Part shown: in pieces, positions 12,882-17,539 of the stretch
Position numbering within the stretch: position 1 is the first letter of the stretch
Layout: every line of letters starts with the position of its first letter
Source: Bacillota bacterium
Lineage (GTDB): Bacteria > Bacillota > UBA4882 > UBA8346
Assembly (NCBI GenBank): GCA_012728785.1
Contig: JAAYEK010000097.1
Location: 1 to 40,076, forward strand
Length of the DNA stretch: 40,076 nt
Direction of reading: 5' to 3'
Made by a program: the position numbers and the translations under genes
The notes under the pieces: generated by a model
What the model was told of the DNA's origin: nothing
Databases searched by the model: none
What the model saw: only the letters and a program-made list of their open reading frames with translations

Positions 12882-13154
12882 ATGAATGAAGAGGAAAAAT
12901 ATCGAAAGGCCAAACAACGGGTAGAGGAGATAAAGGGTTTTTATATTCACTTGTTTATGTTTTTATTGATCAATTGCGGTTTGTTAACGATCAATCTAGT
13001 TTTCGCCCCTGATCATTACTGGTTTTACTGGCCCTTATTCGGATGGGGGATTGGTATAGTGGCTCATGGGATAACCGTATTCGGGCTTGGAGGATTCTTA
13101 GGAAAAGAGTGGGAAGAAAAAAAGATTAAAAAGATTATGGATAAGATGGATTAA
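12882..13154 (+). CDS. 2TM-domain small membrane protein
   Basis: A 90-residue protein with a charged N-terminal helix (Glu/Lys/Arg rich), two transmembrane segments (about residues 20-42 and 50-72) joined by a Trp/Tyr-rich turn, and a Lys-rich C-terminal helix. This is the 2TM (PF13239) layout, which also occurs at the N-terminus of some sensor kinases. GTG 12873 lies in the AAGGAGAG site, so ATG 12882 is chosen. The function of stand-alone members is unknown. It ends in a strong bidirectional terminator. Confidence 0.75.
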   Translation: MNEEEKYRKAKQRVEEIKGFYIHLFMFLLINCGLLTINLVFAPDHYWFYWPLFGWGIGIVAHGITVFGLGGFLGKEWEEKKIKKIMDKMD

Positions 13155-13185
13155 AAAAGAGGACCGATCGCCGGTCCTCTTTTTT
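13153..13185. terminator. Bidirectional terminator
   Basis: A perfect 14-bp stem (13153-13166 with 13172-13185) with six A on one side and six T on the other and a 5-nt loop. It serves the 2TM gene on the plus strand and the bactofilin-like gene on the minus strand. Confidence 0.9.
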
Positions 13186-13199
13186 CAAGCACTGTTAAA

Positions 13200-14468
13200 T
13201 CAATCGTTGACTACAGTTTGCTCTCCTTGGCGTACTGCTATGAAGAGAAATTTAGCTCCGGATAATAAAGCGCCGGTACCCATAATCAGAACGCTGAAGA
13301 CCAACATGAATCTTAGCAGCGGAAATACGGGGCCCACCACAGGGAGTTTGGCGAGGAATTTAAGGATAAATAGGCCAATAGTGATGGTAGCCAATCCAAC
13401 TCCGAAACGATAAGGAACGCTAGCATCTTGTTTAAGCATTAGACCTCCCAACCAAAGCGCCACCGGTATGGAGGAGCAATAAAAAAGAAGGATATAGCCA
13501 AGGGTCATCGCAGTTCCAAAGATTAATCCGATACCGGGATTGATTAATGCCGAGAAAGCAAGCAAGATAATAAATAATATCAGTGATGACAAAGTAGAGA
13601 CCAGACCAAGCAAACCAACTCCAGCTATATTAAAAGGTTTGGTTTTAATTAGTTCAGCTTGGTGTTGGAAGGTTTTCGGGAAGAGTCGATAAAAAGCCAA
13701 ACCGAGTAAAAAATATACTGCGGTCCCCAAAATGAGCCGGACTAGGTTCCAAATCTCAGCTATTATCTCCCGTACCTGCATTCCTCCGGTTTTAACCGCT
13801 GGTTTAATCCAATCGACATCGCCGATTTCAGCGCCACTCTCAATGTCGAGTTGAGTACCGCGATATTTTAATTTGCCATGAATGACGGTACCGGAGCTGA
13901 TTTTTAGAGTGGAGATTTCATCCGCCTCTTCAGAATAGGCCAGCTCTTCTATGGGAAGACTCGTATTGACGTCCACATCTCCGAAGAACTCGCCTTTTAG
14001 GACGATCTGATGGCCTTCGATGTGAGTATAGCCTTTAACTTTCCCGTCAATGTCGATTTCTTCACCAAATACCAGCAGATTACCGCCGATCTCGGCATTT
14101 TTACTTAAAATAATTTCTCCACCGAAGACATTAACATTCTTACCGGTTTTGCCATCCAGGTCGATTGTCCCACCGGCAATCCTAATGTTACCAAGGACCG
14201 GCCCGTTAACGGTTAGTTCCGAGGCGGCACCGATGATGTCGCCGGTTACGGTACCGGTTGACCAGATATCGTGGGTACCGAAGAATAGGTCTCCTTCAAT
14301 CGTTCCATTATGTCTCAAACTTTGGGCCCCCACGAATTTGTCCCGGGTAATTACTTCATTCTTTTCGATAGTTACCATTGGCGAATCAGCCAAGGCGGCT
14401 CCGGAAAATAATAATAAGACCAAGCCCAGGAGATAGAGATATTTCCACTTTAATTTTTTGGTTAGCAT
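13200..14468 (-). CDS. Exported bactofilin-like (polymer-forming) membrane protein
   Basis: A protein of about 422 residues with a signal peptide (residues 3-28, ending AALADS). A repetitive Gly/Val/Ile-rich region of about 200 residues follows, with regularly spaced I-x-G-x-V/I turns typical of the bactofilin right-handed beta-helix. Four to six transmembrane segments make up the C-terminal half. Classical bactofilins are small and cytosolic; here the beta-helix should lie outside the membrane and be anchored by the C-terminal part. The start is ATG 14468 or TTG 14471; the AAGGAT site is far from the former and fits the latter slightly better. It lies downstream of an ECF sigma/anti-sigma pair and is a natural candidate target of that pair. 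Confidence 0.75.
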   Translation of the reverse strand: MLTKKLKWKYLYLLGLVLLLFSGAALADSPMVTIEKNEVITRDKFVGAQSLRHNGTIEGDLFFGTHDIWSTGTVTGDIIGAASELTVNGPVLGNIRIAGGTIDLDGKTGKNVNVFGGEIILSKNAEIGGNLLVFGEEIDIDGKVKGYTHIEGHQIVLKGEFFGDVDVNTSLPIEELAYSEEADEISTLKISSGTVIHGKLKYRGTQLDIESGAEIGDVDWIKPAVKTGGMQVREIIAEIWNLVRLILGTAVYFLLGLAFYRLFPKTFQHQAELIKTKPFNIAGVGLLGLVSTLSSLILFIILLAFSALINPGIGLIFGTAMTLGYILLFYCSSIPVALWLGGLMLKQDASVPYRFGVGLATITIGLFILKFLAKLPVVGPVFPLLRFMLVFSVLIMGTGALLSGAKFLFIAVRQGEQTVVND

Positions 14469-14644
14469 CAAATAAGCACATCCTTTAAAGTTGATTTAGG
14501 TAATTATAAAGTTAATTCTGGTAAGGCAATTCAAGATTATAATCCTTGGCTAATAATCGACTCACCCCCTTGATCTGCTTTATAACAAAGCTATTTGTTT
14601 AAGTTAATAGATTAAGCAGATTGATTTGAATTGAAGGCGCCCTT
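14469..14644 (-). promoter_or_regulatory. Candidate promoter region of the bactofilin-like gene
   Basis: This 176-bp gap after the anti-sigma gene contains, on the minus strand, TTGCCT and TATAAT about 15 bp apart, some 45-70 bp before the start. The bactofilin-like gene may therefore be transcribed both from its own promoter and by read-through. Confidence 0.3.
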
Positions 14645-15190
14645 TTAGTCGCCGCAATTTTTTTGGATCGATATGAATCGGATTAATAAGATCATGGCAA
14701 CTAAAACCGATCCCTTATAGATCGCTAAAACCCATTGGGCTATAGTATTCAGCCCTTGGAACACAAAGGGGCGTATGATACTGTAGACTATTTCCAGCTT
14801 GGTTAAGATGTTTGTGATCTGGGATAATTGACGGCCCGCTTTTAGAAAAAGATTGAAGAAGCTGAAATTTTCCAGGCTGCCACCTAATAGGACCGCCATA
14901 AGGAGTAAAATCAATCCGACCCCGGCCAACCAAACGTATTCGTTGTATATCGTGGTCCGCATTTCTTTGTGGCGGATCATTTGCATTACCTTTACTTCCA
15001 ACATGGGGTCGATCTCCAGGTCTAAGGGTGGCTCTTCCTCCAGTTCGGCCAGGACCCGTTTCAAATCTTGTTCGAGATTACGACAGATAGGGCAGCCTTC
15101 TAAATGTAAGGATAGGTTCTGATTCTCGATATCATTAGTAGTTCCATCAATTTTTTTCATGATTAGGTTGCGCCATTTTTTGCAGCTCAT
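14645..15190 (-). CDS. Zinc-finger transmembrane anti-sigma factor
   Basis: A 181-residue protein with an N-terminal anti-sigma zinc-binding motif H-x3-C-x2-C (H29, C33, C36). A hydrophobic segment near residues 85-105 follows, and a second near 150-172. This is the usual layout of a membrane-held anti-sigma factor that binds its ECF sigma in the cytoplasm. The start overlaps the sigma gene stop by ATGA, with an AAGGAGG site inside the sigma gene, implying translational coupling and matched amounts. The second membrane segment is more than the minimal architecture and may form part of the signal-sensing region. Confidence 0.85.
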   Translation of the reverse strand: MSCKKWRNLIMKKIDGTTNDIENQNLSLHLEGCPICRNLEQDLKRVLAELEEEPPLDLEIDPMLEVKVMQMIRHKEMRTTIYNEYVWLAGVGLILLLMAVLLGGSLENFSFFNLFLKAGRQLSQITNILTKLEIVYSIIRPFVFQGLNTIAQWVLAIYKGSVLVAMILLIRFISIQKNCGD

Positions 15191-15738
15191 CGGAGAACCT
15201 CCTTTCCTGCGGTTAACTTCTCTCTTAGTATCAGCCGGGCGCGATAGAGACGATTTTTGATAATCGTCAACGGAAGCCCGAGTACGGTAACCATTTCTTG
15301 ATATGACAAACCATTTTGATGGTATAAGATTAGGGGAATCCGGTATTTTTCCGGTAGTTCTTCCACGGTTTGCCGTAATATTCGCCGGGATTCCTCTTTC
15401 AAATAAGCCTCCTCGGGAGAATCCGAATTGCCATGAAGTTTAGGACTATCCTCCAGTGGAACCGGAAGCGGTTTTTGCCTGCGTAATTGATCCAAACAAT
15501 GATTGACAGCGATCCGGGTAGACCAGGCGGCGAAGGTATGCTCCGGGTTATATTGACGGAGGGATTTATAAATTTTAATGAATACTTCCTGAAGTAAATC
15601 GTTGACTTCGTCCCGGTTGCGGGTAAGATTATAGATCACCTTCGCCAGATTATATTTATAACGCCCGATCAATTCCGTGAAAGCGTCATCTTTCCCGGTA
15701 AGGCAAAGCTTGATAAGTTCAAAATCGGATAAGGACAA
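15187..15738 (-). CDS. ECF-type RNA polymerase sigma factor
   Basis: A 183-residue sigma-70 family protein of the extracytoplasmic-function group. Region 2 includes D-L-L-Q-E-V-F-I-K and AAWSTRIAVNHCLDQLRR. A short Pro-rich linker separates it from region 4, with the helix-turn-helix YQEMVTVLGLPLTIIKNRLYRAR. The start is TTG 15738; a GGAGGTGA site lies about 11 nt before it and no ATG fits better. It is co-translated with the anti-sigma factor. The envelope-related gene behind it suggests a cell-surface stress or morphology role. ECF-type -35 elements in front could not be assigned with confidence. Confidence 0.92.
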   Translation of the reverse strand: MSLSDFELIKLCLTGKDDAFTELIGRYKYNLAKVIYNLTRNRDEVNDLLQEVFIKIYKSLRQYNPEHTFAAWSTRIAVNHCLDQLRRQKPLPVPLEDSPKLHGNSDSPEEAYLKEESRRILRQTVEELPEKYRIPLILYHQNGLSYQEMVTVLGLPLTIIKNRLYRARLILREKLTAGKEVLR

Positions 15739-15879
15739 TGGTAGGTGGTCACCTCCGGGTTTTAACTATCGGCTATTTCTTTTAAGATAACAAAACAACC
15801 AAAAACAGATTCTATTATTATATACGTCAGTTGATAGATTTTGTCTGAATGATTTTGTAATTTATTTTATAATAGATAT

Positions 15880-16102: not shown

Positions 16103-16121
16103 GTTGGTTTAGATGACCAGC

Positions 16122-16496
16122 TTATTTATAAAAGCTCCATCCTCCATGATGAAATGGGGAATTAAAAAAGAACTGGATTGGAACCGCGGTACCGATATCA
16201 TTGATACCTTCAAAAACCAATAGCCAACGGACGCCGCTTTGGGCCAGCACATCCCGGTCCAATCTTGCCAATCCATTGGGCCCCAGTCGCTAAATGCGTT
16301 TGAAAACCTTACCCGTAGCCATTTCCCTCCGATGGTAGCGTGAATTGTCTGCCGCAGAGTAGTATTGGAAAGAACTAACCCAGGTCCCGACCCATTGTTG
16401 GCCATAACAGGCTGGAAATGAACTTGCTTGGGCAATAAACGGAACTAATAACAACAATCCACAAATCAGAAAAGTAACTAAACGGTTTCTTCTCAT
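16122..16496 (-). pseudogene. Decayed secreted SGNH/GDSL hydrolase
   Basis: The ATG at 16496, with a GGGGAGTG site, opens a signal peptide (about 24 residues, ending AQAS), then W-V-G-T-W-V-S-S, the usual start of secreted SGNH hydrolases. A frameshift near 16400 moves to another frame with TLRQTIHATIGGKWLRVRFSNAFS, the next family block. A further shift leads to a frame with VRWLLVFEGINDIG, which is block III of the family. About 100 or more residues between the last two blocks, including the catalytic GDS motif region, are absent, as is the C-terminal catalytic Asp-x-x-His block. It is therefore non-functional. Confidence 0.8.
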
Positions 16497-16871: not shown

Positions 16872-16892
16872 GGAGGTGAAAGGAGGATGACT

Positions 16893-17312
16893 ATGTTATC
16901 TGAACTTAATCTTACTGAAGCTCGTAAAGGCTTTTCATCCCTTTATGATCAAGTATTCAATACTTTTAAACCGACAATAATCAATCGGAAAAAATCTGAG
17001 CAAGTCCTAGTTTTACGTGTTGACCTACAAAAAATGCTTTTATCACATTTTTCTTTAAAACCGGAAGTTATTAGTGAAGATAATAATTCGGTTACTTTAT
17101 CCCTCGATCAGCTGGAATTATACGTAAATGGTAATACATTGGAAGAAGCTATCAAAATTTTGATTGAAGACTTAAAATTTTATGCCCAAGATTATATCCA
17201 ACGTTCACAATTATTTCTACACGCTCCTAATCGGCGTTCTCATTTCCCATATGTTTTACGGGTTTTACTCTGCGACAATGATGAAGAAATCCGTAGTTTA
17301 TTGGAGCTATAA
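16893..17312 (+). CDS. Phd/YefM-like antitoxin with long C-terminal region
   Basis: A 139-residue protein. Residues 1-50 match the Phd/YefM DNA-binding fold (LNLTEARKGFSSLYDQV, then IINRKKSEQVLVLRVDL). The remaining 90 residues are longer than the short toxin-wrapping tail of ordinary Phd proteins and contain G-N-T-L-E-E-A-I followed by a helix, faintly like the HicB C-terminal signature. It is probably the antitoxin and autorepressor for the HicA-like gene that starts 2 nt after its stop. ATG 16887 abuts AGGAGG, whereas ATG 16893 has it at 6 nt, so the latter is chosen. Codon use is AT-rich, unlike the housekeeping neighbours. Confidence 0.7.
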   Translation: MLSELNLTEARKGFSSLYDQVFNTFKPTIINRKKSEQVLVLRVDLQKMLLSHFSLKPEVISEDNNSVTLSLDQLELYVNGNTLEEAIKILIEDLKFYAQDYIQRSQLFLHAPNRRSHFPYVLRVLLCDNDEEIRSLLEL

Positions 17313-17314
17313 TA

Positions 17315-17539
17315 ATGGCGCCAAAATTTAGAGACCTAAAAAAATATTGTGAGAAAAATGGTTGGGTAATGATTCGTAATACAGACCATTGGTACTATGA
17401 AAAAGTTTTAGCTGACGGTACTTTGTTACAAACTAAAGTTAGTCATGGAGTTCATCAGGAAATTTCCGCTAATATATGGAAGCTGATCTTAAAAAAACAA
17501 CTAAAGATATCCGAAGATGAATTCTGGAATAATCTGTAA
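17315..17539 (+). CDS. HicA-like mRNA interferase toxin
   Basis: A 74-residue protein with the HicA layout: an N-terminal helix ending in N-G-W, a strand with the presumed catalytic His (N-T-D-H-W-Y-Y, H25), then SHGVHQEI and a C-terminal helix K-Q-L-K-I-S-E-D-E-F typical of HicA proteins. Members cleave mRNA to slow translation. The order antitoxin-toxin with a 2-nt gap is the reverse of canonical hicA-hicB, and the partner is Phd-like rather than HicB. It is expected to be translationally coupled to the antitoxin. Toxicity is inferred from family resemblance only. Confidence 0.7.
   Translation: MAPKFRDLKKYCEKNGWVMIRNTDHWYYEKVLADGTLLQTKVSHGVHQEISANIWKLILKKQLKISEDEFWNNL

Follow-up and report, generated by a model that had tools for sequence, protein, structure and literature searches.

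A recurrent operon in Bacillota links an extracytoplasmic function sigma factor and a predicted anti-sigma factor to a predicted exported bactofilin

Within a 40,076 nt contig from the UBA8346 lineage of the Bacillota (JAAYEK010000097.1, referred to throughout as the window), three genes on the minus strand encode, in this order, an extracytoplasmic function (ECF) sigma factor, an anti-sigma factor with a zf-HC2 zinc-finger domain, and a protein with a bactofilin domain (Table 1). The same genes in the same order make up 26 operons, window included, and it is this recurrent operon of known parts that appears to be new; an exported bactofilin in itself has a precedent and is not rare. The reading that we favour, with modest confidence, is of an ECF operon that is self-contained and autoregulated, with a third gene that supplies a membrane-anchored bactofilin lying outside the cytoplasmic membrane, where it would organize the envelope. 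The three open reading frames (ORFs) had been placed at 13200-15738 by the original prediction, which was made from the letters of the window, and their coordinates and Pfam domains were confirmed.

The 26 operons fall into six family codes (f1, f15, f37, f65, f126, and f134), and the bactofilin gene is always the third. The operon in genome G006, a Bacillota metagenome-assembled genome (MAG) record (JARKQY010000024.1), encodes a bactofilin that is 45% identical to that of the window. In the order to which genome G364 belongs the operon was present at 6/6 places, in five matching genomes of the eight searched, and in the class of genome G325 it was found in G325 itself and at 15 further places. 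The three-gene synteny, which the original prediction had named as a check, is thus conserved among these operons and codes, but it is not general: the operon is present in G171 and in G136, which makes one of four genomes in the order of the former and one of three in the family of the latter, and in a draw of genomes from the whole phylum it accompanied the bactofilin in 5 of 42 matching genomes, a patchy distribution. The genes are tightly packed, with sigma/anti-sigma spacing of −91 to +7 bp in 25/25 operons and anti-sigma/bactofilin spacing of −178 to +6 bp in 22/25; in the remaining three, window included, the latter is 134-176 bp. Gene starts were chosen by script, and the largest overlaps probably reflect wrong starts. 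Two local variations were seen: in G136 (L099:2911-5022), a single sigma/anti-sigma pair is followed by two exported bactofilins in tandem, whose beta-helix regions are short, and an S49 peptidase gene (L102:3648-4586) follows the G364 bactofilin gene on the same strand.

Repeat records of the same place, and fragments or cut genes (L045, L070, L158, and L162), were dropped before counting. Among the 95 bactofilin rows that were kept, 27 are preceded by a sigma gene on the same strand (among them the second tandem copy in G136), two have an anti-sigma gene only (L145 and L149), 57 have neither, and nine have too little upstream DNA. These rows comprise an initial 92 and three later full-length ones, with a sigma gene upstream in 24/92 and 3/3, respectively; the four places that were added late, three full operons and one fragment, stand outside the 92-row tree. 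On this tree of 92 bactofilins, built by a quick maximum-likelihood method, the operon label changes 10 times, with at least seven changes forced by starred branches, compared with a mean of ∼22 when the labels were shuffled, and none of 500 shuffles was as low. The label is scattered over the bactofilin tree, and assembly, or loss, of the operon thus happened repeatedly. One starred pair is formed by the bactofilins of the window and G006.

A candidate ECF-type promoter was sought by sequence and found before the sigma gene as the element TCAGAC-N16-CGTA; together with the double length of the beta-helix described below, this goes beyond the original prediction. The pattern TCAGAC-N17-GTA has one match in the window, compared with a shuffle mean of 0.09 (9 of 100 shuffles had one). 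The regions upstream of the sigma genes in the window and G006 share the longer motif CAGACAAAATCT-N9-CGTA, whose no-mismatch occurrence is once per genome in both the host (G000) and G006, each time at this promoter; when up to two mismatches are allowed, G000 has one more site, which falls within an ORF, and G006 has two more, one of them ahead of the ABC-transporter-like genes described below. The element was first spotted by eye in the class of G325 and then counted, giving 13/13 there and 15/22 overall. Three operons were added afterwards, of which two carry it exactly and the third (L160) with one mismatch; 84 of 200 shuffles of that locus give at least one such match. Together, TCAGAC-N16-NGTA precedes 17 of the 25 intact sigma genes and, with one mismatch, an eighteenth; the remaining operon (L085), whose sigma gene is truncated at the end of the contig, was excluded. 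Within the class of G325 the element is exact in 15 of 16 operons and has one mismatch in the other, and the window and G006 also carry it. At L141 and L152 the scripted ORF start lies upstream of the element, and those starts are probably wrong.

The residues KNRLYR are present in region 4 of all 18 sigma factors encoded behind the element, the window's among them, and in none of the other seven, whose genes have a TGAAA-type ECF promoter (five cases) or neither type (two cases). The last three operons were checked against this rule after it had been stated. The match between KNRLYR and the element, of which the search made no use, supports direct autoregulation. The element was absent from the DNA of ten loci with bactofilins outside operons, although at one of these (L135) the upstream DNA is short, and ∼0.96 Mb of partly redundant DNA held four other distinct exact occurrences, two of which had been sampled for their resemblance to the element. 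In the window the −10 sequence is CGTA, and this element is conserved; the −35 sequence is TCAGAC, compared with AAC in the −35 and CGT in the −10 of autoregulated ECF promoters. Autoregulated co-expression of the operon is a well-supported prediction from these sequence patterns. In G006 a full TCAGAC-N16-CGTA also stands at L124:3209-3234, ∼275 bp before an ORF that by eye resembles the ATPase of an ATP-binding cassette (ABC) transporter and is followed by an FtsX-like permease; this ABC-transporter-like operon may be another target of the sigma factor, and is offered as a lead only.

The sigma protein scores above the curated Pfam cut-offs for Sigma70_r2 (56 bits) and Sigma70_r4_2 (45.4 bits), and contains regions 2 and 4 only. 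This agrees with the definition of ECF sigma factors as having sigma2 and sigma4 domains only, as given in PMC8103513. Against the NCBIfam sigma70-ECF model it reaches 104.3 bits (cut-off 42.9), and it falls below the cut-offs of the other 24 NCBIfam models among the matches listed (of 101). A co-encoded anti-sigma factor, a further mark of ECF systems, is provided by the adjoining zf-HC2 gene with its 4-bp overlap, whose product is the putative cognate partner.

The anti-sigma protein carries the zinc motif HLEGCPIC, of the form Hx3Cx2C (H29, C33, and C36). In an AlphaFold2 model (mean predicted local distance difference test score (pLDDT) 77.2; predicted template modelling score (pTM) 0.39), these residues are placed within or at the ends of helices 20-32 and 34-52. 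PMC7406223 gives Hx3Cx2C across helices 2 and 3 as the signature of class I zinc anti-sigma factors. The window protein has this motif, as do 26/26 operon anti-sigmas, and it would bind and inhibit its sigma factor. Ten of the operon anti-sigmas were scanned with Pfam, with zf-HC2 above the cut-off in four, below it in five, and absent in one. Hydrophobic segments in the window protein lie at 81-99 and 155-173, and their number across the operon anti-sigmas varies from one to three on a simple scale.

The ORF of the third protein spans 423 amino acids from a TTG at 14471, and the next codon, an ATG at 14468, is the likelier start; hydrophobic segments, numbered on the 423-residue ORF, lie at 12-30, 240-258, 287-305, 314-332, 352-370, 373-391, and 394-412. 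The Pfam Bactofilin domain (PF04519) was matched in three stretches with 35.6 bits (gathering cut-off 27.9), and with only 22 bits, below the cut-off, at the protein's single place in the genome scan. AlphaFold2, given a 22-sequence alignment, returned a model with mean pLDDT 84.8 and pTM 0.60, in which strands are confined to residues 32-221 and helices to 229-418; pLDDT in the beta-helix block is mostly >90 but falls to 52-73 over residues 171-190. In a second-look alignment, residues 31-134 superpose on 6rib_A, the filament subunit of the Thermus bactofilin, over 96/101 residues with a root-mean-square deviation (rmsd) of 1.6 Å (Z 10.7), the lowest rmsd among the 50 matches listed. The model thus contains a bactofilin-like beta-helix, about twice as long as the solved bactofilin domain. 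Other beta-helices align over a longer range with higher Z (HMW1, 16.1; an antifreeze protein, 14.5), and in a Foldseek search the Thermus bactofilin ranked fifth (E 1.4). With unrelated beta-helices scoring higher and Foldseek giving no significant match, the fold alone is no proof of a filament.

The signal peptide, beta-helix, and multi-pass C-terminus described in the original prediction were each recovered, by a simple signal rule, structure prediction, and hydropathy, respectively. A signal-peptidase-like site was seen by the same simple rule in 35/38 relatives. The charges of these 38 relatives were analyzed with loops cut according to the AlphaFold2 model of the window protein, and are expressed per 100 residues. 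Lysine plus arginine amounts to 24.8 in the N-terminus and to 15.6 and 12.1 in the inner loops, compared with 0 and 4.9 in the outer loops, the first of which has a mean length of only 1.3 residues; in the beta-helix, aspartate plus glutamate (11.2) exceeds lysine plus arginine (7.9). A position of the beta-helix outside the cytoplasmic membrane, as originally proposed, is supported by the signal peptide, by the model with its ∼5 passes, and by most loop charges, with the weak points given below; a cytoplasmic placement is not indicated.

Sequence searches indicate that exported bactofilins of this kind occur widely across the phylum Bacillota. Matches were present in 22 of 61 genomes, host included (E 0.001), in 42 of a phylum-wide sample of 398 (E 1e-8, two-row profile), and in 31 of 97 genomes of the class of G325 (E 1e-8). 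A search of genome contigs with the single protein had matched nothing; a later one gave the G006 record and two standalone relatives in MAGs of candidate phyla. The majority of the matching genes have this architecture and stand alone, and the 92 rows examined have four to seven hydrophobic segments each, so that the idea of a one-off protein was rejected. The original prediction had treated the exported bactofilin as exceptional; this did not hold, since 57 of 86 relatives are of the same kind without a sigma or anti-sigma neighbour, and a surface bactofilin has reportedly been published already. Two apparent architectural variants were also discarded: a bactofilin-helicase fusion in G027 (1190 amino acids), in which the frame crosses unknown letters between the two parts, and an N-terminal extension at L058, taken as read-through opposite another ORF.

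Comparison with known systems places each part in context. Canonical bactofilins of the BacA/BacM/CcmA type are small and have no signal peptide. The window protein shares their Pfam domain (PF04519) and superposes in part on 6rib_A, but it is predicted to be exported, with a helix of double length and several membrane passes. Canonical bactofilins being small and cytosolic, and the window protein having 422 amino acids, a signal peptide, and ∼5 passes, all as predicted, we class it as a variant rather than as canonical. Elsewhere in its genome the host encodes a second bactofilin, which is canonical (146 amino acids) and lies directly behind an M23 peptidase gene (L107:474-1890, contig 286). 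Pairing with an M23 peptidase gene is described for several bactofilins in PMC13393453.

An outer-surface bactofilin has a precedent in the archaeon Haloferax volcanii. Curtis et al. (PNAS, 2024) reportedly showed that its halofilin B (HalB) is a bactofilin-family protein at the cell surface; being archaeal, HalB is not known to have ECF sigma neighbours. According to PMC12186497, halofilin B localizes to negative curvature in disks. SigW/RsiW-type systems resemble the window pair in having a sigma factor with regions 2 and 4 only, a membrane anti-sigma factor with Hx3Cx2C, and a CGTA-type −10, and a SigW model is the best NCBIfam match of the window sigma factor among the matches listed (124.6 bits; cut-off 209). 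They differ in that the window sigma factor is below the SigW cut-offs, its −35 is TCAGAC and not of the AAC type, and the third gene encodes a bactofilin. No description of a sigma/anti-sigma/bactofilin operon was found in the literature searched, which consisted of main texts and included few subscription papers; supplementary tables of ECF groups may list the context. The main texts of the ECF papers PMC8103513 and PMC7406223 do not mention bactofilins by name, and in two papers that treat bactofilins as well as ECF sigma and anti-sigma factors the passages on bactofilins make no connection to an ECF system.

Table 1. Coordinates of the operon, its protein regions, and adjoining elements in the window.
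Feature	Position	Strand	Details and basis
ECF-type promoter element TCAGAC-N16-CGTA, upstream of sigma gene	15823..15848	−	Motif match, conservation
ECF sigma factor gene	15187..15738	−	183 amino acids, TTG start at 15738; Pfam PF04542, PF08281
Anti-sigma factor gene	14645..15190	−	181 amino acids, 4-bp overlap with sigma gene; zf-HC2 25.6 bits, above Pfam cut-off
Gap between anti-sigma and bactofilin genes	14469..14644	−	176 bp
Exported bactofilin gene (whole)	13200..14468	−	422 amino acids from ATG
Predicted Sec signal peptide, residues 1-27	14388..14468	−	ALA^DS; simple rule
Beta-helix with bactofilin domain, residues 32-221 (∼190), predicted outside membrane	13806..14375	−	Pfam, AlphaFold2, 6rib_A
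C-terminal membrane region, residues 229-418	13215..13784	−	∼5 passes in model; hydropathy, AlphaFold2, charges
Likely terminator, hairpin then T run, 3′ of bactofilin stop	13153..13179	−	Read by eye

Several features surround the operon. A gene for a 2TM-domain protein (PF13239; 12873-13154, plus strand) is convergent with the bactofilin gene, and the terminator is seemingly common to both. On the upstream side, a PHD_like antitoxin gene and then a short ORF that is HicA-like by eye form a probable toxin-antitoxin pair (16887-17539, plus strand). Two overlapping short ORFs in different frames (16109-16496, minus strand) lie upstream of the sigma gene; by eye they resemble the disrupted first part of a gene for a secreted hydrolase of SGNH type, and they had no Pfam match. 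An RNA element between the anti-sigma and bactofilin genes was considered and rejected, as the stretches from the window and G006 fold like their shuffles: positions 14480-14625 of the gap folded no better than shuffles, a second TCAGAC element was not found in the gap, and an Rfam scan of the window gave nothing at the gathering score.

Gene order, overlaps, domains, topology signals, recurrence, and the promoter element are read from sequence, and the mechanism that we infer is as follows. The anti-sigma factor would keep the sigma factor at the membrane until an envelope signal inactivates it, perhaps by the kind of regulated proteolysis that acts on other class I anti-sigma factors of the membrane. 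The freed sigma factor would transcribe its own operon from TCAGAC-N16-CGTA, and the new bactofilin would be exported by Sec and held by its C-terminal passes. On the side of the membrane that faces the wall, its long beta-helices may then come together, stiffening or organizing the envelope until the signal is relieved.

A number of observations weigh against this reading. The whole AlphaFold2 model had no Foldseek match in the PDB at E ≤0.001. PF04519 was above the cut-off in only four of the eight operon bactofilins scanned, below it in two, and absent in two, that of G006 among them. The segment before the first membrane pass, expected to lie outside, has 15.5 lysine plus arginine per 100 residues across the 38 relatives, the C-terminal tail is charge-balanced, and the window's own second inner loop has one such residue only. 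Of the relatives with enough upstream DNA, the 57 of 86 counted above have no sigma or anti-sigma neighbour; among 29 genomes of the class to which the host belongs, just two carry the window's subfamily (E ≤1e-20), and it was not found in the single other genome of the host genus. Finally, the 176-bp gap before the bactofilin gene of the host means that this gene may be expressed separately. Taken together, the interpretation offered in the original prediction is partly supported.

One alternative is that the exported protein is a monomeric beta-helix that forms no filament and presents a binding face at the wall, as an adhesin, an enzyme clamp, or an adapter, so that ‘bactofilin’ describes a mere beta-helix resemblance. 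We regard this as plausible but unlikely. It would account for the higher Z of HMW1 and the antifreeze protein, the poor Foldseek rank of the Thermus bactofilin, and the missing or sub-threshold PF04519 in half of the eight proteins scanned, and a helix of twice the solved length whose C-terminal end is tied to the membrane also fits it; the domain is nevertheless above the cut-off in the window protein and three other operon bactofilins, and the lowest rmsd is that of a bactofilin. That the genes are neighbours by chance or hitch-hiking, without a functional link, is very improbable. Most relatives are standalone, and the flanking genes of the window and G006 operons come from different families, as this would suggest; however, with 13 region-4 hits above the cut-off in the 3.7 Mb of the host, ∼0.4 sigma neighbours would be expected in 86 genes (an estimate that ignores kinship) and 27 were seen, in separated lineages.

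The exported bactofilin might instead be a sensor or co-regulator and not (only) the output. Its beta-helix would touch the wall and its membrane region would hold or release the anti-sigma factor, relaying a mechanical or chemical change in the wall to the sigma factor; we think this unlikely. The product of a gene that follows an ECF pair often acts as a regulator of the anti-sigma factor, which counts for such a role, and because the gene order is fixed, with the bactofilin gene third in all 26 operons and abutting or overlapping the anti-sigma gene in 22/25, it keeps some probability. The anti-sigma factor of the window has ∼55 residues between its hydrophobic segments, and no sensor domain was seen in the 10 of 26 operon anti-sigmas scanned with Pfam; the number of these segments varies, which makes the shortness of the outer segment uncertain. 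In most genomes the same type of protein has no sigma neighbour, and such standalone relatives favour the bactofilin as output. We therefore lean towards a wall scaffold made under envelope stress in preference to a sensor for the anti-sigma factor. A bolder proposal joins the two roles. The exported bactofilin would polymerize outside the cytoplasm in the manner of a cytoskeletal protein and act as a strain gauge in contact with the wall, gating the anti-sigma factor; a dedicated sigma factor, which would recognize TCAGAC through KNRLYR as a promoter code of its own, would then have the bactofilin both as its sensor and as its autoregulated output. This we consider doubtful.

The wider significance of the operon lies in the connections that it makes. 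Recurrent linkage in genomes connects a protein of a cytoskeleton family with an ECF sigma factor, and the promoter element gives a means of listing the regulon of that sigma factor. Outward-facing bactofilins, as predicted here, appear to be widespread in Bacillota, which leaves the view of bactofilins as a cytosolic family incomplete. For the bacteria that carry it, the operon may provide a way to sense or reinforce the wall.

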